Of a stretch of 64,000 bases of DNA, positions 12,641 through 59,682 are shown piece after piece. The position numbers and the translations under genes are program-made. The DNA comes from Myxococcota bacterium (GTDB taxonomy: Bacteria; Myxococcota_A; UBA9160; UBA4427). Location of the stretch: positions 1-64,000 of the forward strand of contig JAPKBZ010000012.1 of the NCBI GenBank assembly GCA_028823175.1, given 5' to 3'. The notes under the pieces are model-generated. The model saw only the letters and a program-made list of their open reading frames with translations. It was not told where the DNA came from and did no database searches. The number at the start of each line of letters is the position of its first letter. Position 1 is the first letter of the stretch.

Positions 12641-13861
12641 CTAACGCGCCACCCGAACCCAAAGCGACTTCAGGCTCCGAAAACTGGGGACGGGTGCATA
12701 TTCGTACCGGCCTTCGAGGGCATGGATTTCAGGGAAGCGATCGAAGAGCGCGAAAAAAGTTTCCTGCGCTTCCAGACGCGCCAAATGGGCGCCCATGCAG
12801 AGATGACGCCCGCCTCCAAAGGACTGGTGGTGCGTGTCCTCGCGTTCGATATCGAAACGATCTGGCTCGGGATAGACGTCGGGGTCTCGGTTGGCAGCGG
12901 CCAACGTGACCGAGAGACTCTCGCCCCGAGCGATTTTGACGCCTCCGATTTCCATGTCGGCGTTCGCAATACGCCCGGAGTTCACCACCGGCGAGTCGTA
13001 GCGGAGAATCTCTTCCACGGCGTTCTTCATCAATCCAGGCTGCGCCCGCAACTTCTCCATCTGGTCAGGGTGATCGAGAAAAGCCTTGGTCCCGTTTCCG
13101 ATCAGGTCGGTGGTCGTCAGGTTCCCTGCCGCCAGAAGCAGATTGCAGGTTGAGATGACCTCGGCCACGCTCAGGCGATCCCCGACCGCTTCTGCGGCAA
13201 CGAGTTGGCTGATCAAATCTTCGCCGGACTCGCTTCGCCGGCGCCGGATCTCCTCCTCGAAAAAAGCATCCAAGGACGCCTGGGCCTTCTCGGCCAGCCT
13301 CACCGCCGCCTCCTCTTTAACCGGGCTGAAGGCGACCTCGACGCTGTCATGCGACCATTGCTTGAAGCTCTCGTGCATGCTCGGATCAACCCCAAGCAGT
13401 TCGGCAATGACCACGGTGGGGATCGGCCTGGCCACTTTTTCCATCAGGTCGAATTCGCTGCCGTCGATTTCCCCGATCACCCGATCCGCTACCGCCCGGG
13501 CACGACTTCGCCATTGCTCGACGGCCCTGGGAGTAAACGAGCGGTAAACGAGTTCTCGCAGCCGGCGATGGCCGGGATCGTCCATCAAGAGCATGGACGG
13601 CTCTTCGTCGTCATTGCCCAGGACCTCCCGGGAAAAGGTTCCGGGGTTGCCCTTTCGCGGGTCGGACCACAAATCGCGATCTCGCAAGATCGCCATCACA
13701 TCATCGTGTCGGGTGAAGACGTAACGCTTGAAAACCTGGTCGTGATGAACGCGCTCGCATTGCCTGAGCTTGGCGAGAATCGGGTAGGGGTTTTCCCGGA
13801 ACGGCTTGTCGAGAGCGGTCAGCTCCAAACCGGTAGGAACCGCATCAGCCATCGGGGTCAT
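12641..13861 (-). CDS. Cytochrome P450 (soluble bacterial type)
   Basis: About 406 residues from the ATG at 13861, chosen because the segment before it (to 13906) does not resemble P450 N-termini. The K-helix EEILR, the SFGGGRHLCMGAHLAR haem loop with its Cys ligand, and MDDPGHRRLRELV (C-helix) are present. The I-helix reads LLAAGNLTTTD: the usual acidic residue before the conserved Thr is replaced by Leu. It needs separate ferredoxin and reductase partners, neither encoded next to it. It is cotranscribed with the downstream class III aminotransferase. Substrate unknown. Confidence 0.88.
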   Translation of the reverse strand: MTPMADAVPTGLELTALDKPFRENPYPILAKLRQCERVHHDQVFKRYVFTRHDDVMAILRDRDLWSDPRKGNPGTFSREVLGNDDEEPSMLLMDDPGHRRLRELVYRSFTPRAVEQWRSRARAVADRVIGEIDGSEFDLMEKVARPIPTVVIAELLGVDPSMHESFKQWSHDSVEVAFSPVKEEAAVRLAEKAQASLDAFFEEEIRRRRSESGEDLISQLVAAEAVGDRLSVAEVISTCNLLLAAGNLTTTDLIGNGTKAFLDHPDQMEKLRAQPGLMKNAVEEILRYDSPVVNSGRIANADMEIGGVKIARGESLSVTLAAANRDPDVYPEPDRFDIEREDTHHQSFGGGRHLCMGAHLARLEAQETFFALFDRFPEIHALEGRYEYAPVPSFRSLKSLWVRVAR

Positions 13862-13951
13862 GCCTCCGGGATCGCGTGAAGCGCCATAATAGCACCCCGA
13901 GCCCATCCCAGATTTCAGAATCCCACCACCGACGGGCGACGATTCAGCGGC

Positions 13952-16990: not shown

Positions 16991-18094
16991 CTAGTTGTCC
17001 CGGGATCCGGCGATAAAGGCCTGCACGTTGCGGTGGGCTTCGTCGTCGGTGACCTGCTCGGGCGGGTGCTTCATGAAATAGGAGGAGGGTGAGTGCAGAA
17101 CCCCGCCAATCCCCCGATCCAGAGCCACCTTGGCGCAGCGAATGGCATCGATGGAAACGCCCGCGGAGTTCGGGGAATCCTCCACCGAGAGCCGCATCTC
17201 GAGATTCATCGGAACGTCGCCGAAGAGTTTCCCCTCCATGCGGATGAAGCAGACCTTATTGTCGTTCTGCCACGGGACATAATCGCTCGGACCCACGTGG
17301 ATATCATCGGCATTCATCCGAGTCGCAGCGACCGACTGGACCGCCTCGGTCTTGGATTCCTTCTTGCTGGCCAGGCGGTCCCGGTTGAGCATATTGAGGA
17401 AATCGGTGTTCCCGCCCGTATTCAGCTGGTAGGTGCGCTCCAGCTTTACTCCCCGCTTCGCAAAGAGGTCGGTCAGGGTCCTGTGCGTGATCGTGGCCCC
17501 GAGTTGGGCCTTGATGTCGTCTCCCACGATGGGTAGGCCGCGCTTCTCGAAGCGCGCGGCAAAAGCCGGGTCGCTGACGATGAAAACGGGAATGCAATTC
17601 ACCAGAGCCACCCCGGCCTCGAGAGCGCACTCGGCATAGAAACGAGCGGCTTCTTCGGAGCCTACGGGGAGGTAGTTGATGAGGACATGGGCACCGGATT
17701 CCCGAAGTTTTTCGACGACTTCATGCTGGGTGGGCTCTTCGCCATCCGAGGGCAGGAACGTGCGCTCATCGGAGTAGTCGGCCATGTGCTCGGCGACGCC
17801 GTCGAGCACGCGCCCCATGCTGACATGGACCCCAGCCTTGGGCACGTTCGGGCAGAACGCGGTGGTGCAATTCGGCGACTCGAAAATCGCCTCGGAAATA
17901 TCCTTCCCGACCTTCCGCACGTCGACGTCAAAGGCGGCGACGACCTCGAGATCCGAGGGCAAGTACCCGCCGAGGTCCCAGTTCATCAGCCCAGTCGCCT
18001 CTTCGGGGCCCCTCTCGGCGTAGTACTGGATGCCCTGAACGAGCGAGCTCGCGCAGTTGCCAACGCCTGCGATGGCGATTTTAATTTTGCCCAT
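16991..18094 (-). CDS. ino1: Inositol-3-phosphate synthase
   Basis: 367 residues from the ATG at 18094, chosen because an AGGGGGGAA ribosome site lies between it and an upstream in-frame TTG. The protein converts glucose 6-phosphate to myo-inositol 3-phosphate using tightly bound NAD. The N-terminal [20 protein letters not shown] is the NAD-binding motif of the actinobacterial/archaeal type. [13 protein letters not shown], followed by KKESKTEAV, is the conserved active-site segment. It implies inositol phospholipids or inositol-derived solutes. It is monocistronic; the upstream gap of about 245 bp holds its promoter. Confidence 0.92.
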
Positions 18095-18340
18095 GGTTCC
18101 CCCCTGCAAACTTCGCCGACCCCAACGGCCATTTGGGCTGCTCGTGCCCGGTGTCGGGCGAGGCAGATCTTACCTTAGTCCAACGGGAGCTACCCCGTTT
18201 CACTGGCCGGCTAAGCGCTTGTTCGTGCTCGTGGCCCGTTCCAGCAGCCCCTTTGTATAGCCCGAATTATCGGCCGCGGGTCCGCCCCTCGGGGATTCAA
18301 GGAACGGGGAGGGGGGAGAAACTCCCAACCCCGACGCTGC

Positions 18341-35250: not shown

Positions 35251-36228
35251 TTAGTTGCTCGTGCGGAGAGCGCGAAGATCGCGTAGATAGAGCAGGCCCA
35301 ACAGGCACCGGCCCAACGTCAGAGCGATTGGGAAGACCAGGCCAAAAGCAACAATTTCGGCCTGCTCCCCGTAATCGGACCAGAAGAAAACCATCGCAGC
35401 GGCCTGGGTTCCCAGACCCGCCGGTGCGATGGGGATTGCGGCAACCAACATAATCACCGGCGCCGAAGCAAGGGCGAGGGCAAAAGGGATTTCGATCCCG
35501 AAGGCGTGGCTACCCGCCCAGAAGATCCAGATAAAAACGAGGAAGTAGACAAGCTTGATGAGAACGATGAACGCGAAATCCGCAGGGCTGGCCAGGCGGT
35601 AGCTCCGAATGATGGATGCGTTGCGAACCCTGCTCAGCCAACGCCACCCAGGAATCGAAGCCGCCAACAGAAAAAGCAGCCCAGCCTGGATCAAAAACGT
35701 CACCCCGGCCACGTGTCGCAGGGTTTCAATCGTGGAAGTCGCAACGAAAACCGAAGATCCCACCAGGGCCAGGCCGAGCATGATCAAAGCGTCGCAATTT
35801 CCATAGAGAAAGAGCGAACTCGTCGACTCGAGGGCAGGAACCGATTTGAAGCGCTTCAAGTAGACCACGATCGCCGCAGTTCCCACGTTCCAGTTCAGAG
35901 CGGTGAGGAGATAGGTGACCCCGCGCATGGAGCGTGCCTCGGACCAGGCTAGAGGCGCATTGAATCGCGTGATCAGGTAGGCGAGGGCTCTGGAATCGAG
36001 AAGAAACCAGAAGATCACAGCGGCGATTATTTCGGGAACGAAGAGGTCGAGTCGCGCGTTGCGGGCAGCCGAGCCCACCTGGGCAATCGGAACCTCCCAG
36101 AGCAGGAAGACAACAATTCCGAGAGCCGCCAACCAGGGGGCGACACTTCGCAACCAGCCCGGAGCGCTTAGACCCTCGCGAGACGCTTGGGAGGCCGGGC
36201 CTCTGTCGATGTCACCAGACTCTTCCAT
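35251..36228 (-). CDS. Flippase-like membrane protein (lysylphosphatidylglycerol synthase TM-domain family)
   Basis: 325 residues with about 8 membrane helices. The closing segment IPIAPAGLGTQAAAMVFFW resembles the P-x-x-P-G-G-L-G motif of the AglD/MprF N-terminal transmembrane family, members of which move or modify lipids. It starts 45 nt after the extended SDR and precedes the VOC gene by 38 nt, so it belongs to the same tandem run. A lipid-transport role is inference. Confidence 0.68.
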   Translation of the reverse strand: MEESGDIDRGPASQASREGLSAPGWLRSVAPWLAALGIVVFLLWEVPIAQVGSAARNARLDLFVPEIIAAVIFWFLLDSRALAYLITRFNAPLAWSEARSMRGVTYLLTALNWNVGTAAIVVYLKRFKSVPALESTSSLFLYGNCDALIMLGLALVGSSVFVATSTIETLRHVAGVTFLIQAGLLFLLAASIPGWRWLSRVRNASIIRSYRLASPADFAFIVLIKLVYFLVFIWIFWAGSHAFGIEIPFALALASAPVIMLVAAIPIAPAGLGTQAAAMVFFWSDYGEQAEIVAFGLVFPIALTLGRCLLGLLYLRDLRALRTSN

Positions 36229-36273: not shown

Positions 36274-37308
36274 CTAGGACCGATTCGCCTGCCGGTCGGC
36301 CCCGGGATCGGCGGCGCAGTCCAGCGCGGGCACGGCGGACGCCGGCAACCGGCCAACCTCGACCAGCCAGACAAAAAGATCGTGAATCGTTTCCCGGGGA
36401 TCGCGCCAATCTATTCCGAGTTCGGCGACCTGACGCGAATTCTGCATCCGGGGAAAGCGCGTGGCGATTTCGAGACCTTCCCCGGTCATTGGCATCTTCT
36501 TGCCCGTCAGCGCCCCGACCCTGTCCAGGGAGCGACCCGCCAGCCGGAGCAGCCAGCCCGGGGCCGCCAATCGCGGAATTTCGGCGCCGGTCACCTCTTC
36601 GAGCAGGGCTGTGAATTCATCCCAGTCGAAATAGTGACCCGCCGCGATCACCCGGCCGACCCTCTCCTCCTCGAGCATACGTACGAGCAACCCCGCCAGA
36701 TCGCGCACATCCAATAACTGGTTCCCTCCTTGGCTCCGAAGCGTTCGGCGCAGGAAGGATCGATAGGCCTTGACGGATTCACTGAATCCCGGGTCGTCCG
36801 GGCCGACCACACCCGGTGGATACACCAGGGCGACTCGCGCGCCCGCATCCTGGTGCGCGCGCACCCACCCGTCGCACTCGGCCTTCGAGCGACCATATCG
36901 CGTGCGGCTTTGAACCAGGGGAGAGTCCTCGGTGGGGGGGCGAGAGGGATCAAAAATGGCCGTCACGCTCGAAAGAAAAATTGCATAGATCCCCTTGGCG
37001 AGGGCCTGTCCGATCACCACCTCGGTCCCCCGAAGGTTGTCCGAAAAATCCGCTTGGGCGGCGGTGACCGAGACGCCAGCGGCGGCATGAACAACGGCAT
37101 CGACGCCCTCGAGGGCCCGGCTGACGGCTTTGGGGTCGGTCATATCGCCCGGGATTCTCTCCTCGGCTTCGATTCCAAGCGGCCCGAGCACCCGCTCGCC
37201 CTTGGCTGCATCCCGGACGAGCGCGCGAACGCCGTGGCCCTGGGCCGAGAGACGGGCGGCCAGGTGGTAGCCGATAAATCCCGTGGCGCCGGTGACCAAT
37301 ACCTTCAT
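36274..37308 (-). CDS. Extended SDR (NAD-dependent epimerase/3beta-HSD-like)
   Basis: 344 residues. MKVLVTGATGFIGYHLAARL is the extended-SDR Gly motif, DAVVHAAAG the strand-4 site, and YGRSKAECDGWV the catalytic YxxxK. The middle part (VYPPGVVGPDDP) and C-terminal helices fit the epimerase/dihydroflavonol reductase/3beta-hydroxysteroid dehydrogenase group. Position in the CYP51-headed run makes action on a steroid or terpenoid ring conceivable, but the sequence does not prove it. Confidence 0.82.
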   Translation of the reverse strand: MKVLVTGATGFIGYHLAARLSAQGHGVRALVRDAAKGERVLGPLGIEAEERIPGDMTDPKAVSRALEGVDAVVHAAAGVSVTAAQADFSDNLRGTEVVIGQALAKGIYAIFLSSVTAIFDPSRPPTEDSPLVQSRTRYGRSKAECDGWVRAHQDAGARVALVYPPGVVGPDDPGFSESVKAYRSFLRRTLRSQGGNQLLDVRDLAGLLVRMLEEERVGRVIAAGHYFDWDEFTALLEEVTGAEIPRLAAPGWLLRLAGRSLDRVGALTGKKMPMTGEGLEIATRFPRMQNSRQVAELGIDWRDPRETIHDLFVWLVEVGRLPASAVPALDCAADPGADRQANRS

Positions 37309-38656: not shown

Positions 38657-39217
38657 CTAGGCGTCGGGGTCTTCCAGGGTCGCATACCAATCAAAATCCT
38701 TTTGACGAACCCAACCCGGCATCTTGCTCCCCAACTTCATTCTTTCCTGCATTCGCTCGCTCAACTGACCGTTCTTCATCATCGCACCGAATACGGCCCC
38801 GGCGTTGGCATGATCGAAAAAATCACGCTGCCAGCACCACTGGAAATTGCCCGCGTAGCGGAACCAGCTGCCGCCCGTACCCCGAATTTCATAAGGGACG
38901 CCATCGGGATCCTTCACCGGGGCCACTTGCCGCCAGATTCCGAGAAATTCGCCCTTCTCTTCATCAATCAGTCGGCGCTTGTAGGGGTAGGTCCAGCGAT
39001 CGAGGCCCGACATCTCGGTACCGAAAACCCAATCGTGGATCTCCTGGCGCCCCCGAGCGGCGAATTCCCATTTGGGTCCATTATTCCAGCTATAGATCGC
39101 TTCTTCCGTATAAAAAGACGACATCTTCGACCAGTCGCCACTCTCCCCCGCCTCATCGTTGGCCGCCACCCAGCGGTCGACCATCTCCTTAATTTCGTCT
39201 CTCGAAAAACCAGGCAC
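38657..39217 (-). CDS. NTF2/SnoaL-fold protein, coupled to CYP51
   Basis: 186 residues; GTG start at 39217 overlaps by one base the TAG of the CYP51-ferredoxin gene, with GGAGGGT upstream, so translation is coupled. The fold is typical: IKEMVDRWVAANDEAGESGD, then WSKMSSFYTEEAIYSWNNG, ARGRQEIHDWVF, and RGTGGSWFRYAGNFQWCWQRD. A C-terminal helical tail (SERMQERMKLGSKMPGWVRQ) is longer than in other NTF2-like proteins here. Tight coupling suggests it acts with the P450, perhaps on its product. Confidence 0.75.
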   Translation of the reverse strand: MPGFSRDEIKEMVDRWVAANDEAGESGDWSKMSSFYTEEAIYSWNNGPKWEFAARGRQEIHDWVFGTEMSGLDRWTYPYKRRLIDEEKGEFLGIWRQVAPVKDPDGVPYEIRGTGGSWFRYAGNFQWCWQRDFFDHANAGAVFGAMMKNGQLSERMQERMKLGSKMPGWVRQKDFDWYATLEDPDA

Positions 39218-40812
39218 TAGATACCCTCCTCTATGTTCTCGATGGTCAAAGCCCGGGTCGGGCAGTGTTCCGCCGCCTGTCGTACCCGGTCGCGATCGTT
39301 TGGATCGGGTTCGGAAACGCGCACGACGACTTTTTTCTCATCCGGGTCGACAGAAAAAATGTCGGGCGCTTCCTCGGCGCAAACTCCGTGACCCTGACAA
39401 AGATCTGCATCGACACAAATTCGGAAGCGCCCAGTGGTTCCGATATCTTGCGCACCGCCTCCGGCCGTCACCAGCGATCGAGGGGCCTCGCGCCTGCGGT
39501 AGCGGACGGCGCAGGGCTGGGCGAGCTGCACCACCATCTTTGAGTGGTCGTTTCGATAGGCCTCGGGAGCCTGGGCGAGTTCGAATGTGTAGTCCCGAAG
39601 CAGCTCACTAAAAATGGCTTTGATCTGCATCAGGGCAAAGGCCGAACCCACACAGCGATGTCGCCCGGCTCCGAAGGGAATCCAGGCGAAGAGCTGTTTA
39701 TCCTCATCTCTTCCCCCAGCGTAGCGGGCCGGGTCGTAACGATCGGGTTCGGGAAAGCATTCGGGCATCCGGTTCGAGACCGCAGGCGAGACCCCGACGA
39801 GTTGACCGGCGGGAACGGTGAACTCCTTATAATGGAAGTCTTGCATGACTTTTCGCATGAGCAGGATCAGCGGGGGGTGGAGCCGGAGTGCTTCCATGAT
39901 CGAGTGCTCGAGGCAGGGAATTTCGCGCAGGGCCTGGTGGCTGACCTCTCGGCCATCGGCGTAGAGCCCATCGAGCTCCACGACGACCTTATCCATCGCC
40001 CAAGGGTGCCTCAAGAGCTCGATCAAAGTCCAGGCAGCGCTCCCCGATGTGGTGTGGTGCCCGGCAAACATCAGCGAAATAAACATCCCCGTGATCTGGT
40101 CGATGGTGTAACGGGGGCTGCCTGACTCATCTTTCAACTTGAGCAAAATATCGAAGAGCTCGGGGGATGCTTCTGGATCACGCCTTCGGCGGTCGAAGAC
40201 CCCGGACAAAAGATCAACCAGGCGCTGCCTCGCCCGATCTCGCGCGCGAAAGGCGGGCAGGGGGAGGTTCGCATTCACGTACGCAATCGCATCCGTCCCC
40301 TTCTCCAATTCGTAGAAGGCGCGGAAATATTCGGGGCTGAGCTCTTCGCGAAACTCCTTACCGATCAGGCACGAGCTCGACGTGTAGATCGTGAGTTCCG
40401 AGAAAAAATCGAGCAGGTCGATCTCGCCCGCGTCGCCGAGGCCTTCCATCATCCGCCGCACTTCGCTCGAAATCGACTCGGCATGGGCCTTCATGAACTT
40501 CGCGGTGAGCGACTGATTCCTGAGCGCTTGCTTTCGCTGCTCCGGGGTTCCGTCAAAGACGACACCCTCACCGAAGATCGGGGTCATAAAGGGATAGGCA
40601 GCGGCCTGATCGAGTTGCTCGTCGCTCGCTCGGAAGAAGGCTTCCTGGGCCTCCTCCCCCATCAACATGACCACGCGATTGCCGGCGAAGTTGATCTCGC
40701 CAATTTCGCCCAACTCGTCGCGAACTCGCTGAAAGAGGGCGATGGGATCCTTTCGGAGTGCGCCCAGATGACCCAGCAGCGGCCAGGCCCCGCCCAGGCG
40801 GGGCGCTGCCAA
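39217..40812 (-). CDS. cyp51: CYP51 sterol 14alpha-demethylase fused to a 3Fe-4S ferredoxin
   Basis: 531 residues from the TTG at 40812; the frame is open to 40962, but the extra part overlaps a promoter palindrome and has no family similarity. CYP51 features: YPFMTPIFGEGVVFDG (residues about 73-88, the BC-loop signature), I-helix MFISLMFAGHHTTSG (243-257), EALR (307-310), and the haem loop PFGAGRHRCVGSAFALMQ with Cys387. It closely resembles mycobacterial CYP51. A short linker leads to a ferredoxin (about 463-531): CQGHGVC (Cys472, Cys478) and CPTRAL (Cys517), with His475 at the fourth-ligand position, as in 3Fe-4S P450 ferredoxins. A similar natural fusion is known from Methylococcus. Confidence 0.9.
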   Translation of the reverse strand: MAAPRLGGAWPLLGHLGALRKDPIALFQRVRDELGEIGEINFAGNRVVMLMGEEAQEAFFRASDEQLDQAAAYPFMTPIFGEGVVFDGTPEQRKQALRNQSLTAKFMKAHAESISSEVRRMMEGLGDAGEIDLLDFFSELTIYTSSSCLIGKEFREELSPEYFRAFYELEKGTDAIAYVNANLPLPAFRARDRARQRLVDLLSGVFDRRRRDPEASPELFDILLKLKDESGSPRYTIDQITGMFISLMFAGHHTTSGSAAWTLIELLRHPWAMDKVVVELDGLYADGREVSHQALREIPCLEHSIMEALRLHPPLILLMRKVMQDFHYKEFTVPAGQLVGVSPAVSNRMPECFPEPDRYDPARYAGGRDEDKQLFAWIPFGAGRHRCVGSAFALMQIKAIFSELLRDYTFELAQAPEAYRNDHSKMVVQLAQPCAVRYRRREAPRSLVTAGGGAQDIGTTGRFRICVDADLCQGHGVCAEEAPDIFSVDPDEKKVVVRVSEPDPNDRDRVRQAAEHCPTRALTIENIEEGI

Positions 40813-40942
40813 CCCCCTGGACCCGCCTTCCTCGCCGCCGGGGATTGCCCCCCTCTTCGCTCGCGGATCCTCAGCGGGATGGGGCGCCGAGTCAATATTG
40901 TGCGCGTCGGAAGGGGATCGGACCACAACTGCGACCGTATCC

Positions 40943-40975
40943 AATTTACAATTCTTCTGCAATGTAAATTATGAT
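40943..40975. promoter_or_regulatory. Divergent promoter with 8-bp inverted-repeat operator
   Basis: AATTTACA (40943-40950) and TGTAAATT (40963-40970) form a perfect inverted repeat with a 12-bp spacer. On the plus strand, TTACAA (40946-40951) and TATGAT (40970-40975), 18 bp apart, could be -35 and -10 elements, so the repeat overlaps a core promoter. The TetR gene of the divergent operon is the natural candidate binder. Confidence 0.6.
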
Positions 40976-41039: not shown

Positions 41040-41906
41040 ATGAGCAAGCGAGTGGGCTTCATCGGTCTGGGCAACCAGGGCAAGCCCATCGCGGCGCACC
41101 TGGCACCCGCCGGCTTCGACACCGTTGTCTACGACATCGATGAAACCGCTATGGCCGAGGTGGTCGCGGGCGGAGCGAGCGCTTCGGCTTCGCCTCGAGA
41201 GGTCGGAGAGCGAGCCGACTGGGTCGGGCTCTGCGTCCCCGAGGATGCTCATGTTCTCGCCGTCTCTTTGGGGGAGCAAGGACTCGTCGCGGGGATGCGT
41301 GAGGGCGGGGTCATCTTGATCCACAGCACGGTGCTTCCGGAGACCGCCGAGGCCGTTGCCGAAGCAGCAGCGGCCAAGAAGATCGCCGTCCTCGATGCCT
41401 GTGTCACCGGCGGCGCCGCTCGCGCGGCCAATCGGGAACTCACCTACCTCGTGGGCGGCGACCCGGAAACAGTCGAGAGGGTGAAGCCCTATTTCGAAGC
41501 GACCACGGATATCCCCCACATCCATGCGGGGCCCCTGGGCAGCGGAGCGAAACTCAAGCTCTGCATCAACTTGATCACCTATATCCAGTGGGCCGCCGCC
41601 TATGAGTCCATGGCCCTCGCCCGGGCAATTGGCCTACCCCAGGAAATTCTGGAAGAGGCGGGGCGATCCAATGGACAGATCACCGACTTGATGCTGAGCT
41701 ACCTGACCAGCCAAAAGCTTCCCCAGGACGCCCGGGAGAGCGAACCCTTCCAAAAGCTCATGCGTGGCCACATGAAAATCGCCGAAAAAGACCTGGCCTG
41801 GGCACTCGAACTCGCTCGCAAATCCGAAGTCGCCTTGCCCGTTGGCTCCCTCGTTTCCCAGTCCATGGCGCGCCTCTACGGCGTCGAAGATAAGGCACGA
41901 AGGTGA
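41040..41906 (+). CDS. Beta-hydroxyacid dehydrogenase (3-hydroxyisobutyrate dehydrogenase-like)
   Basis: 288 residues from the ATG at 41040, preceded by GAGGAGTGG. The N-terminal RVGFIGLGNQGKPIAAHLAP is the NAD(P) Rossmann motif, DACVTGGAARAANRELTYLV matches the substrate-binding signature, and GSGAKLKLCINL carries the catalytic lysine. Family members oxidise beta-hydroxyacids, such as 3-hydroxyisobutyrate or tartronate semialdehyde. First gene of a three-gene operon (TetR, CoA transferase) with 4-nt overlaps, divergent from CYP51. Confidence 0.85.
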   Translation: MSKRVGFIGLGNQGKPIAAHLAPAGFDTVVYDIDETAMAEVVAGGASASASPREVGERADWVGLCVPEDAHVLAVSLGEQGLVAGMREGGVILIHSTVLPETAEAVAEAAAAKKIAVLDACVTGGAARAANRELTYLVGGDPETVERVKPYFEATTDIPHIHAGPLGSGAKLKLCINLITYIQWAAAYESMALARAIGLPQEILEEAGRSNGQITDLMLSYLTSQKLPQDARESEPFQKLMRGHMKIAEKDLAWALELARKSEVALPVGSLVSQSMARLYGVEDKARR

Positions 41907-42538
41907 GCACCCAGCTCGAGAATGCGCAGCCCGGCCCCGGCAAACGGCGGAGTCATGCCGAGCGAACCGCCGAAACCCGTGATCGGGTTCTGCGCGCTGT
42001 CGTCGCGAGCATCGATGAGGTGGGCTTTCAGAGGACCACGGCGGCGGAAATTGCGCGCAGGGCTGGGGTCTCGTGGGGCGCAGTCCAACATCATTTCGGA
42101 GACAAGGAGGGCATCTTGATGGCTGCCCTCGAGGAATCGTTTGAGGTCTTTGCCGAAAAACTCGGCGCTCCGCCCGACGGCGCCATGGCGCTAGAGGATC
42201 GCGTGGAACTCTTCGTCGCTCGAAGTTGGGAACATTTCCGAAGTGCCCACTACCGCTCGACCTTCGAAATTCTCATCAACCTGCCAACCGAGACCGAAAT
42301 GCCCTGGCAACGCGGAGTCCTCGACGAATGGCAAAGGATCTGGTCGCGCTTCTTCCCCGAGAGCAAGCCACGGGGACGCCAGCGAATAGACCTCATGCTC
42401 TATGCCATCTCCGTTCTCACCGGCCTCTCCGCGACTCGAATGCTCGAAGGCCGGCCGGCGCGCACGCCTTGCCGCGAACTCGCTTTCCTTGAGCGAACTC
42501 TGATCGAGTCGCTCGGCGAAGAGGAAACCCGGGGATGA
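41903..42538 (+). CDS. TetR/AcrR-family transcriptional regulator
   Basis: 211 residues; GTG start overlaps the preceding stop by 4 nt. The DNA-binding domain reads TRDRVLRAVVASIDEVGFQR, TTAAEIARRAGVSWGAVQHHFGDK, a textbook TetR HTH. The C-terminal half resembles TetR_C ligand-binding domains. Its likely target is the inverted repeat at 40943-40970 between its own operon and the CYP51 operon, so it may couple both to a common ligand, for example an acyl-CoA or sterol. Confidence 0.85.
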   Translation: MSTQLENAQPGPGKRRSHAERTAETRDRVLRAVVASIDEVGFQRTTAAEIARRAGVSWGAVQHHFGDKEGILMAALEESFEVFAEKLGAPPDGAMALEDRVELFVARSWEHFRSAHYRSTFEILINLPTETEMPWQRGVLDEWQRIWSRFFPESKPRGRQRIDLMLYAISVLTGLSATRMLEGRPARTPCRELAFLERTLIESLGEEETRG

Positions 42539-43728
42539 AATCCGAGCGGGGGCCGTGTTCGGGGATTCGCGTCCTGGATTTCACCACCATGATCTCCGGC
42601 CCGCTCTGTACTCAGGTCCTCGGTGATCTCGGTGCGGATATCCTCAAGCTCGAATCGCCGCTTGGCGACGCCGCCCGCTATAGCGGCGCCCCTTTCCGAG
42701 AACCGGGGTTTTCGGGCTTCCTCGCCCAATTCAACCGCAACAAGCGAAGCCTCGTCGTGGATCTCAAGCGCAGCGAAGGCCGACAACTCGTTCTCGATCT
42801 CCTGCCCCAGATCGATGTGCTCGTCGAAAACTTCAGGCCGGGGGTCATGCAAAAATTGGGGCTCGGTTATTCCGCGCTCTCGGCTATCCACCCCGGTCTG
42901 GTGTATGCCCAGGTCAACGGTTTCGGTGACGATGGACCCTACGCCGAGCGTCCGGCCTACGATCAGGTCCTCCAGGGCCTCACCGGCCTGATGCCGGCCC
43001 AGGGGGGCGAGGGCCCGCCAGCCCTGGTCCAGGGGGCGGTCGCCGACAAGTCCACCGCGCTGACCGCCCTTGCGGGCGTGCTCGCCGCCCTTTTCGCCCG
43101 GGAGCGTGATCCGGAGGGACGCGGACAGAGGGTGGAAATCGCGATGATGGACGCCTTTTCCGCTTTCTCCCTCACCGAGGCGATGATGGAACGCTCGTTT
43201 CCTCCCCTGAAAAACGAGTTCAGTACAGGCGCCGACTTCTTTCGCACGTGGAAGACCGCGGACGGCCATGTGGTCGGCCTCCTCATTCAGGATGCCCAAT
43301 TCGCCGGACTCTGCCGAGTCCTCGAGCGTCCGGAACTCGCCACGGACCCGCGCTTCGAAGCCATGGTCAAGCGTTTCGAGAACTGGCTTCAACTCGTCCC
43401 GATCCTCGACGCAGAACTCTGCAAACTCTCCAGCTCCGAATTTCTCGCGCGAGCCGAGAGCGAAGGCGTTCCCTTTGCTCCGGTCAACGACCTCGACGAT
43501 TTTCTCGCCGACCCTCAGGTCCGGCATCGCCGAAGCGTTGTGGAGTTGAACGACCCACGCTTCGGGCCTGTCCAATACCTCGCGCCTCCAATTCGCTTCG
43601 AGCGGACCCGCGCGAGTATCGAGCGCCACGCACCGCGCCTGGGTGAGCACACCGACGAGATCCTCGAAGAACTGGGGCTCAGCGCCGATGCAATCCGTGA
43701 GTTACGTGAACTCGAAGCGATTCGGTAG
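42535..43728 (+). CDS. CaiB/BaiF-family (class III) CoA transferase
   Basis: 397 residues; ATG start overlaps the TetR stop by 4 nt. Family marks are IRVLDFTTMISGPLCTQVLG, DLGADILKLESP, FNRNKRSLVVDLKRSEGR, and the catalytic Asp in PAYDQVLQGLTGL. It would move CoA between carboxylic acids, often activating a substrate for degradation. With the beta-hydroxyacid dehydrogenase it suggests a short acid-degradation route under the TetR regulator's control. Confidence 0.87.
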   Translation: MKSERGPCSGIRVLDFTTMISGPLCTQVLGDLGADILKLESPLGDAARYSGAPFREPGFSGFLAQFNRNKRSLVVDLKRSEGRQLVLDLLPQIDVLVENFRPGVMQKLGLGYSALSAIHPGLVYAQVNGFGDDGPYAERPAYDQVLQGLTGLMPAQGGEGPPALVQGAVADKSTALTALAGVLAALFARERDPEGRGQRVEIAMMDAFSAFSLTEAMMERSFPPLKNEFSTGADFFRTWKTADGHVVGLLIQDAQFAGLCRVLERPELATDPRFEAMVKRFENWLQLVPILDAELCKLSSSEFLARAESEGVPFAPVNDLDDFLADPQVRHRRSVVELNDPRFGPVQYLAPPIRFERTRASIERHAPRLGEHTDEILEELGLSADAIRELRELEAIR

Positions 43729-43742
43729 CCCTCGACCGCCGT

Positions 43743-44609
43743 TCAAAAATGGTCCAGAACCTCATCGCCGAAGCGCTTGATGCCATCGCAGCGAGCCTCG
43801 CGGGATTGGTTTGCATCGCCATAGAAGAGCCATGGCACAGTGATCAACTCGGTCACGCCCCGGTCACGCATTTCCCGATAGCCATCGAGATCGTAGACAT
43901 CGCGTAGGGCCGCACAAATACCCAGGGGCTCGCCGGCCCGATCCGACTGTGCCCGATAGGTCCGCAGTCGATCCATAATCGTGTCGAGTTCTTCGCGAGT
44001 CTGGATTTCAGACGCCCAGCCATCACAGAGCGTCGCCGCTCGCCTCAGCGCCGCATCGGAAACGCCTCCCCCGTAGATAGGAACGGGCTGGGGCGGAACC
44101 GGGTTCATTTGCAAGGGCCCAAAATCGTAGAACTCACCGTGATGCTCGACCGCGCCCCCGCTAAAGAGCGTGCGCATAATTTCAATCGACTCCGCCAGGC
44201 GGCGCCCACGGCCCTCGAAGGACTGGCCGAGAACCTCGAACTCTTCGCGCATCCAGCCAGCGCCAACGCCCAACGTCAACCTGCCCTGGGAGAGGACCGA
44301 GGCCGTTGCCACACTTTTGGCGGCGAGCACCGGGTGGCGAAGAGGCAGCACCAGAACGCTCGTGATGAAGCGAATACTCCGGGTGACCGCTGCCATGGCG
44401 CCGACGGCAACCAGCGGATCGGGCCAGGGCGTCTCGGGCGCCCAGCGGGGCTTCCCATCTGCCGTATAGGGGTAGGGGGTACCCAGATGAACAGGGTGAA
44501 TGACATGGTCAGAGATGACGATCCCGCCGAAGCCGGCCTCCTCGGCTGTCTTCGCGATCTCGCAGAGGTCCTCGGGTTGGCTATACGCGACGGCGATACA
44601 GAAATCCAG
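43743..44609 (-). CDS. LLM-class (F420- or flavin-dependent) oxidoreductase, CTG start
   Basis: 288 residues. The reading frame is open upstream of the internal ATG at 44396, and its translation LDFCIAVAYSQPEDLCEIAK then TAEEAGFGGIVISDHVIHP is the usual LLM N-terminus. No ATG, GTG or TTG occurs before the next in-frame stop, but GGAGAGAAGGT sits directly before CTG at 44609, so CTG is the likely start. Downstream, ATASVLSQGRLTLGVGAGWM and GREFYDFGPLQM-like segments (here HHGEFYDFGPLQM) are canonical. Converges on the CoA transferase gene. Confidence 0.78.
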   Translation of the reverse strand: MDFCIAVAYSQPEDLCEIAKTAEEAGFGGIVISDHVIHPVHLGTPYPYTADGKPRWAPETPWPDPLVAVGAMAAVTRSIRFITSVLVLPLRHPVLAAKSVATASVLSQGRLTLGVGAGWMREEFEVLGQSFEGRGRRLAESIEIMRTLFSGGAVEHHGEFYDFGPLQMNPVPPQPVPIYGGGVSDAALRRAATLCDGWASEIQTREELDTIMDRLRTYRAQSDRAGEPLGICAALRDVYDLDGYREMRDRGVTELITVPWLFYGDANQSREARCDGIKRFGDEVLDHF

Positions 44610-58437: not shown

Positions 58438-59682
58438 CTATTTCGAAACCGCGGGCGGCGCGTTCGCCCCGGGCCCCGAGCCCTCGACACTGAAGGGCAG
58501 CGAGAGATAACGCCGGACATAATTTCCCCCGGCAAATTCTCCGGCTGCGGCGTCCACGGTAAACTTCGGACAACGCGCCAGCAGCTCCTCGAGGGCCACT
58601 CGTGTCTGCATGCGCGCTACGGCGGCACCAATACAGTGGTGGGGGCCATAGCTCAGGGCCAAGTGGCGTCGAACTTTTCGAGTGATATCGCAGCTCTCCG
58701 CCCCGGGTCCGAACTCGCGCTCATCCCGATTCGCCGATCCGTAGAGGAGCATGACCTTCTGCCCCTCCGGAATCGTCTTCTCCAAGACGGTGACCTCCCG
58801 AGTCGTCATTCGGGCGAGGCCCTGGACCGGGCTCGTCAAACGAAGAAACTCTTCGATCGCCACCGAGATCCGCTTCGGCTCGGTCACGAGCAATCTCTGC
58901 TGGTCGGGATTCCGGGTCAGCAATTCCGAGGCACCGCTCAGAAGCCCTGTGGTCGTATCGTTCCCCCCGGCGACCATCGTAAAGGCCATCCCCAAAATCC
59001 AGGCCGGAGAAACCTTCTCACCTTTTGGGCGAGCGTGCACCAGGGAAGAAATAATGTCATCGCCGGGGTTATGGCGAACCCGCTCCATATGCGCCGTGAA
59101 ATAACCGACCAATTGGGCGATGGCTTCGCCGGCGGAGCTGATATCGCCCTCGGAGTTGGCAGCCACAATGGCATCGGTCCATTGGTCGAAGAGATTGCGA
59201 TCCTCCTCGGGGACGCCCAGATAGTGCCCGACAACAAGGCTCGGCAGCGGCTTGAAGAGTTCGGCGACCACGTCGCCCTCGCCCATTTCGCGCAGGCGCT
59301 CGACGCGCTCGACCACAAATTCCCGAACCCGAGGCTCAAGCGACTCGACCTGACGCGGCGTAAATTGCTTCACGGCCAGCTTCCGCATCTCGGTGTGGTC
59401 GGGTGGATCCATCATAACGATGGGCGAATCGAGACCGAGTGCTTCCATCTCTCCGTACGCCATGGTCAGGCCCCGGGCCGAGGAGAAAGTGGAGGCATCC
59501 ACCGCCGCCGCGAAGACCTCTTGAAAACGGGAAAGCGCCCAGAATTCTCCGTTTTCATTCTCGAAACGGTGCACGGGATCGCGGTCTCGGAGCGCTTTGT
59601 ACATAGGGAAGGGGTCGCGCCAACTCTCACCGCCCCGGGGAAGATAGACGGGGGGCGGGAACTCGGTTCCGGAGTTCGGCAT
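58438..59682 (-). CDS. Cytochrome P450 (soluble bacterial type)
   Basis: 414 residues. MMDPPDHTEMRKLAVKQFTP (C-helix), I-helix FTMVAGGNDTTTGLLSG with normal acid-Thr pair, EEFLR (K-helix) and the haem loop LSYGPHHCIGAAVARMQTR, which has Tyr instead of the usual Phe before GxxxC. It needs external ferredoxin and reductase. A TATAAT -10 box on the minus strand at about 59729-59734 lies upstream. Substrate unknown; resembles CYP125/CYP142-type or CYP107-like bacterial P450s without a firm match. Confidence 0.87.
   Translation of the reverse strand: MPNSGTEFPPPVYLPRGGESWRDPFPMYKALRDRDPVHRFENENGEFWALSRFQEVFAAAVDASTFSSARGLTMAYGEMEALGLDSPIVMMDPPDHTEMRKLAVKQFTPRQVESLEPRVREFVVERVERLREMGEGDVVAELFKPLPSLVVGHYLGVPEEDRNLFDQWTDAIVAANSEGDISSAGEAIAQLVGYFTAHMERVRHNPGDDIISSLVHARPKGEKVSPAWILGMAFTMVAGGNDTTTGLLSGASELLTRNPDQQRLLVTEPKRISVAIEEFLRLTSPVQGLARMTTREVTVLEKTIPEGQKVMLLYGSANRDEREFGPGAESCDITRKVRRHLALSYGPHHCIGAAVARMQTRVALEELLARCPKFTVDAAAGEFAGGNYVRRYLSLPFSVEGSGPGANAPPAVSK

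Follow-up and report, generated by a model that had tools for sequence, protein, structure and literature searches.

A known counterpart of the gene reported here is the CYP51-ferredoxin fusion of Methylococcus capsulatus, which has been known since 2002, and "large numbers" of bacterial CYP51-ferredoxin fusions are mentioned in work cited in PMC9519919. A second point of reference is the CYP51 of Mycobacterium tuberculosis, which has been crystallised and assayed and whose physiological role is unclear because M. tuberculosis lacks a complete sterol pathway (PMC6469627). The third is 8,14-Bsr, a reductase described in 2026 that makes an 8(14)-ene sterol from the product of CYP51; its defining reaction leads from 4,4-dimethylcholesta-8,14,24-trienol to the 8(14)-ene. 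The gene lies close to that of CYP51 in Methylococcaceae, in Mycobacteriales and in uncultured Myxococcota (PMC13277303). Both the fusion architecture and the Myxococcota pairs of Bsr and CYP51 are already known (PMC9519919, PMC13277303). What is new here is a lineage without detectable cyclases, a gene set that this lineage has in common with Actinomycetota, and a third, uncharacterised gene, U436, that among the genomes sampled is confined to the cyclase-poor side. The main text of PMC13277303 discusses neither U436 nor the lack of cyclases in this group.

The fusion gene and its operon

The window, i.e. the whole 64,000-nucleotide stretch of DNA that was analysed, comes from a contig of a 4.64-Mb MAG that is 90.97% complete and carries ~25 P450 genes. 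The features of the locus are as follows:

39217-40962, minus strand: CYP51-ferredoxin fusion ORF; 581 aa if read from the longest start, with conservation setting in at residue ~50
39487-40812, minus strand: domain of CYP51 (sterol 14alpha-demethylase), which covers residues 51-492 and matches 1x8v at 575 bits in phmmer
39241-39423, minus strand: C-terminal ferredoxin domain, residues 514-574, C-x2-H-x2-C...CP (Pfam Fer4_13/Fer4_15 and sequence)
38657-39217, minus strand: NTF2/SnoaL-fold protein, 8,14-Bsr homologue by six residues matching M. capsulatus (PMC13277303)
37343-38653, minus strand: uncharacterised protein of 436 aa (U436) made of two tandem copies of one domain, remotely DUF6125; predicted V4R/Bet3/H-NOX-type fold; noted for its co-occurrence
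36274-37308, minus strand: extended SDR (epimerase/3beta-HSD type), candidate 3beta-hydroxysteroid or 4-carboxysterol dehydrogenase; HpnA/SdmB-like below cut-off
35251-36228, minus strand: membrane protein, LPG_synthase_TM/flippase-like, possible last operon gene; near CYP51 also in L040
40971-41906, plus strand: divergent beta-hydroxyacid dehydrogenase (HIBADH family), probable start ~41040; a neighbour in relatives
41903-42538, plus strand: divergent TetR-type regulator, candidate regulator; immediate neighbour of CYP51 in several relatives

The earlier note had described a CYP51 naturally fused to a ferredoxin, and our analysis confirms that the fusion ORF is real and intact and that its CYP51 identity is sound. 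P450 and ferredoxin are encoded in one uninterrupted minus-strand frame of 581 codons, which runs from a TTG at 40962 to the stop at 39217-39219 without an internal stop. In the span first given for the gene (39217-40812, with no strand), position 40812 is residue 51, where conserved homology sets in; the longest ORF begins at 40962. TTG 40962, TTG 40944 and GTG 40926 are candidate start codons, and the true start is uncertain because the 50-residue leader shows weaker conservation, even among members of the genus. The P450 part matches Pfam p450 at 223 bits; in phmmer searches M. tuberculosis CYP51 aligns with residues 51-492 (575 bits, E 2e-171), and the M. capsulatus fusion 6mcw aligns with residues 56-574, across both domains (520 bits). 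All best PDB matches are CYP51 and other P450s score far lower; the P450, for which a position outside the CYP51 clade had been considered, is a CYP51. The mycobacterial-type signatures noted before are borne out by the best match, M. tuberculosis CYP51, and by the tree, in which the gene joins actinobacterial CYP51. The CYP51 signatures present are YPFMTPIFGEGVVFD and FAGHHTTSG, with heme Cys437; Y123 (the invariant Tyr, Mt Y76), H303 and T304 of the I helix and C437 (heme) are kept in all tabulated rows. The Cys-x2-His-x2-Cys...Cys-Pro ferredoxin was likewise found in frame as C522-Q-G-H525-G-V-C528 ... C567-P568 (CQGHGVC...CP), and this part matches the single-cluster model Pfam Fer4_13 at 47 bits; the motif suggests a cluster of the 3Fe-4S type. 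The activity proposed at the outset, 14-demethylation with electrons passed within one polypeptide, is also the likely one.

Each of the five genus genomes carries the fusion, and it is common across the class; identities are 60-91%. Contamination is therefore unlikely, and its recurrence in four more genus genomes and across the class speaks against a chance event. One CYP51-ferredoxin gene nested among the Myxococcota rows stems from a MAG labelled Gammaproteobacteria (L057:8365-12684), is flanked by Bsr on its upstream and an SDR on its downstream side, and reflects either transfer or mis-binning. Genome G305, which has an OSC-like gene, carries a second, divergent CYP51-ferredoxin gene (L188, G305:C288:20000-26000) beside its window-type copy. 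Elsewhere in the window lie two P450 genes of other families (12641-13906 and 58438-59682, both minus strand) and an actinobacterial-like inositol-3-phosphate synthase gene (16991-18109, minus strand) that scores 448 bits against the INO1 model of the mycothiol pathway, below its cut-off of 638.

Downstream of the fusion the genes are tightly packed. The GTG start of Bsr overlaps the CYP51 stop (TAGTG) on the same strand, with GGAGG upstream; U436 follows 3 nt after Bsr, the SDR 34 nt further and the membrane protein another 45 nt further. A PDB search with the Bsr protein returned nothing significant. Its pocket residues Y36, Y42, Y77, Y79, D132 and D135 correspond to Y37, Y43, Y78, Y80, D133 and D136 of M. 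capsulatus at a constant offset of one, and the mapping was cross-checked on the Haloechinothrix aidingensis homologue (L104), which has Phe where PMC13277303 reports Phe. Judged by these residues, the gene at 38657-39217 is an 8,14-Bsr homologue. Bsr is co-localised with CYP51 in most relatives too and occurs in 49 of the 52 class genomes with CYP51 (91 class genomes; Fisher 1e-19, kinship uncorrected). The same gene set, mostly with an unfused ferredoxin, is found in Actinomycetota. The SDR was considered as SdmB and rejected; it stays a candidate oxidoreductase because it reaches no more than 84 bits where the cut-off is 600. On the other flank, a CoA-transferase family III gene (42535-43728, plus strand; near CYP51 also in L041 and L043) lies downstream of the TetR gene, and an LLM-class flavin oxidoreductase gene (43743-44396, minus strand; F420-dependent TIGR03619, 179 bits, above cut-off) is found near CYP51 in several relatives.

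Predicted substrate and fate of the sterol

We infer activity, substrate, origin and purpose of the operon, and the role of its third gene, in one reading that we regard as probable: the fusion-headed operon 14-demethylates and reduces exogenous sterols, which would probably be C4-monomethylated. The CYP51 with its C-terminally tethered ferredoxin would act as sterol 14alpha-demethylase, with a separate ferredoxin reductase still needed, and 8,14-Bsr would reduce and isomerise the resulting delta8,14-diene to an 8(14)-ene sterol. U436, with its two ligand-binding-type domains, would probably bind or present the lipid. The sterol itself would be taken up from eukaryotes, probably in a C4-monomethylated form (obtusifoliol type), and then be remodelled or fed into steroid catabolism.

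The C4-monomethyl prediction derives from a single position. The residue at Mt position 78 (T. cruzi 105) decides whether C4-monomethyl (Phe) or C4-dimethyl (Ile/Leu) sterols are preferred (PMC2629123, PMC2850312). In the window clade, all 42 rows from its Myxococcota and actinobacterial parts have Phe there (Phe125 in the window fusion), while Ile/Leu is found in 7/7 Methylococcus-clade rows and Ile in six of seven rows of a third, mainly OSC-bearing clade. Phe125 thus predicts a C4-monomethyl substrate as a preference and not as a strict specificity, because M. tuberculosis CYP51 with Phe78 turns over lanosterol too (PMC6469627).

Steroid use by the host is plausible. Its genome encodes a full-length homologue of 3-ketosteroid delta1-dehydrogenase (KstD; L195) that scores 572 bits to 7p18; against the NCBIfam model it reaches 602, short of the cut-off of 789. 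The surrounding region (L206:8036-15902; C234 ~36.0-43.9 kb) contains a gene for a MaoC-like protein with an OB fold of the ChsH2 type, together with thiolase-like, ECH and LLM flavin genes; CoA-transferase and ETF genes are found in the neighbourhood as well, and the whole is possibly a steroid or CoA-ester catabolic cluster. An HsaC-type extradiol dioxygenase is only weakly matched in this incomplete genome (46 bits to TIGR03213, cut-off 366; 36 bits to 2zi8), so that the 9,10-seco steroid pathway cannot be called complete. The CYP51 locus does not lie beside the KstD cluster, and KstD-like genes are widespread in the class with or without CYP51. Among the scanned window proteins (redox sensor kinase, NorR-like regulator, aminotransferase, antiporter, INO1, symporter and dehydrogenases) no steroid cluster was seen. 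Another region (C174), with two P450s and a dioxygenase-like gene, was considered as a steroid set and holds mixed catabolic genes with no clear set of this kind.

It is possible, if not what we favour, that the exogenous sterols do not serve as food but are remodelled or detoxified, e.g. for the organism's own membrane or against sterol-like defence compounds. This would fit 9,10-seco ring-cleavage genes that were not convincingly found and the LPG_synthase_TM/flippase-like membrane protein at the operon end; KstD and side-chain-type genes in the same genome argue against it. Unlikely, in our view, is a scenario in which the fusion has taken on a substrate other than a 14-methyl sterol (another triterpenoid, a fatty compound or a pollutant) and the CYP51 signatures are a relic. 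The genome gives no sign of sterol synthesis, its ~25 P450 genes suggest broad oxidative catabolism, and the natural role even of M. tuberculosis CYP51 is unclear (PMC6469627). Yet not only Tyr123, His303 and Thr304 are kept, but also the Tyr equivalent to Y186, which in M. capsulatus CYP51 hydrogen-bonds the sterol 3-OH (PMC9519919), and the coupled Bsr gene retains six of six residues, its tested homologues using the CYP51 product (PMC13277303).

The exogenous origin of the sterol is suggested by the cyclase searches. PF13243 (cyclase) finds no match in the organism's own genome (91% complete), and TIGR03463 finds neither an OSC-like nor a hopene-cyclase-like match in the five genus genomes, all of which carry CYP51-ferredoxin and Bsr. 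These cyclase models readily detect OSC and SHC elsewhere in the phylum; for TIGR03463, scores above ~380 bits were taken as OSC-like and ~230-265 bits as hopene-cyclase-like, a split that is a reading of scores within the phylum. The genomes sampled are mostly MAGs, and the absences hold for the models and genomes searched. The check proposed earlier, a genome search for squalene epoxidase and oxidosqualene cyclase, yielded no cyclase and, as the lone PF08491 match in the organism's own genome, a generic FAD monooxygenase at threshold level (L009, 20 bits), which was rejected as squalene epoxidase. No co-occurrence of OSC with CYP51 emerged in the class: OSC-like genes are present in 2/52 genomes with the window-type CYP51 (G022 and G305) and in 3/39 without CYP51 (Fisher 0.65). 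Of the phylum genomes sampled, 16 of 19 with other CYP51 types, chosen from CYP51 matches for the tree, have one (Fisher 4e-11 against the window type, kinship uncorrected).

Given that no oxidosqualene or squalene cyclase could be detected in organism or genus, a sterol of eukaryotic origin is the most likely substrate. The Methylococcus-like sterol making hinted at in the earlier note is not supported by our data, because a cyclase and a convincing squalene epoxidase are lacking and OSC occurs in 2/52 genomes with the window-type as against 16/19 with other CYP51 types; the P450 also falls outside the Methylococcus clade. De novo synthesis as in Methylococcus, with cyclase and epoxidase genes too divergent or missing from the assembly, is quite improbable: a gene could sit in the gap of a 91% complete MAG, two class genomes with window-type CYP51 have an OSC-like gene and CYP51-ferredoxin with Bsr serves sterol synthesis in Methylococcaceae (PMC13277303), but none of the five genus genomes has a cyclase, OSC goes with other CYP51 types and not with CYP51 in the class, and the same models find OSC and SHC readily in the rest of the phylum.

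The third gene, U436

U436 has no Pfam match at E 0.001; four of 19 relatives match DUF6125 marginally, a literature search found no paper on DUF6125, and a PDB search with the U436 profile gave nothing significant. Its two halves are homologous (24.5% over 204 aa, E 7e-15). Half-size homologues of ~220-237 aa occur near CYP51 (L085:6228-6938, L102:1514-2218, L106:12042-12746, L052:6384-7064 and L053:2493-3158) and presumably represent the unduplicated form. U436 adjoins Bsr in Rhodococcus, Williamsia, Gordonia and Speluncibacter loci and lies no more than 10 kb from CYP51 in several mycobacteria. Within the class (91 genomes) it is present in 48 of 52 genomes with CYP51 (Fisher 3e-15, kinship uncorrected) and in 47 of 51 with Bsr; it was not found in the 288 genomes examined from the rest of the phylum, those of sterol makers among them.

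The AlphaFold model has a pLDDT of 90 for the whole protein and 77 for one half. One half aligns to 6iy8_C (DmpR) with a VIA Z of 9.3 (rmsd 3.8 over 141 residues), to MopR with Z about 9 and to Bet3 with Z 8-9; the whole protein reaches Z 7. A Foldseek search gave no E below 0.001, and the predicted V4R/Bet3/H-NOX-type ligand-binding fold is for this reason suggestive only. This fold would be shared by one U436 half with the V4R/aromatic sensor domains of DmpR, MopR and PoxR and with TRAPP Bet3. U436 differs from these proteins by an identity of ~10%, two copies per chain, the lack of a DNA-binding or AAA+ part and an invariant Cys/His motif of its own. The conserved residues C129, C147-H148, E151-D152, H172 and C185 may form a putative metal or catalytic site, and we infer a role in sterol binding or sensing.

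History of the fusion and comparison with known systems

A maximum likelihood tree of 63 prokaryotic CYP51 domains (quick search, SH-aLRT support only; eukaryotic CYP51 left out, M. capsulatus represented by the 6mcw sequence) places the window CYP51 in a 43-row clade with a support of 100, together with all sampled actinobacterial CYP51, including that of M. tuberculosis, and the Myxococcota of the class. M. capsulatus CYP51 stands outside this clade with Myxococcota of another family that mostly bear OSC, and the third clade, largely OSC-bearing as well, is separate from both. Of the two affinities that the earlier note wanted compared, the actinobacterial one is thus recovered, whereas a single clade of M. 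capsulatus and window-type fusions is rejected (AU p = 9e-6). The actinobacterial CYP51 in the window clade are mostly unfused; in most sampled Actinomycetota the ferredoxin is a separate neighbouring gene, and L078, L085, L097 and L098 look fused. At least seven changes between fused and split states are required on the tree. Given this and the tree position, the CYP51-ferredoxin fusion is a recurrent or repeatedly lost state and not a mark of sterol synthesis.

It may be, and we propose it tentatively, that CYP51-ferredoxin, Bsr and U436 form a module for exogenous 14-methyl sterols which is shared by cyclase-free Myxococcota and Actinomycetota, including relatives of M. tuberculosis. U436 would then be an undescribed sterol-pathway protein (carrier, sensor or enzyme) that scavengers have and sterol makers lack, and Phe versus Ile/Leu would separate scavenging from synthesising CYP51. 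If true, such a shared scavenging module would explain why CYP51 is retained in bacteria without sterols.

The fusion of M. capsulatus (6mcw/7snm; PMC9519919) has the same order, CYP51 followed by a C-x2-H-x2-C...CP ferredoxin in one chain. It differs from the window fusion in its CYP51 clade and in carrying Ile at the C4-methyl position, where the window fusion has Phe, and Methylococcus makes sterols de novo, whereas the window genome shows no cyclase. The window Bsr is of the same NTF2/SnoaL type as the described 8,14-Bsr, with six of six residues and a position adjoining CYP51 (PMC13277303). The closest solved relative of the window CYP51 is M. tuberculosis CYP51B1 (Rv0764c), and both have Phe at position 78. 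Mycobacterial loci, like that of the window, have ferredoxin and Bsr near CYP51. The M. tuberculosis ferredoxin is a separate gene (Rv0763c), in contrast to the fused one of the window, and U436, where present in mycobacterial loci, lies ~6 kb upstream and not directly after Bsr as in the window. The same gene set in an unrelated phylum lacking cyclases offers a comparative handle on the role of M. tuberculosis CYP51: the comparison points to exogenous, possibly C4-monomethyl sterols as its natural substrate and singles out U436 as the new gene.
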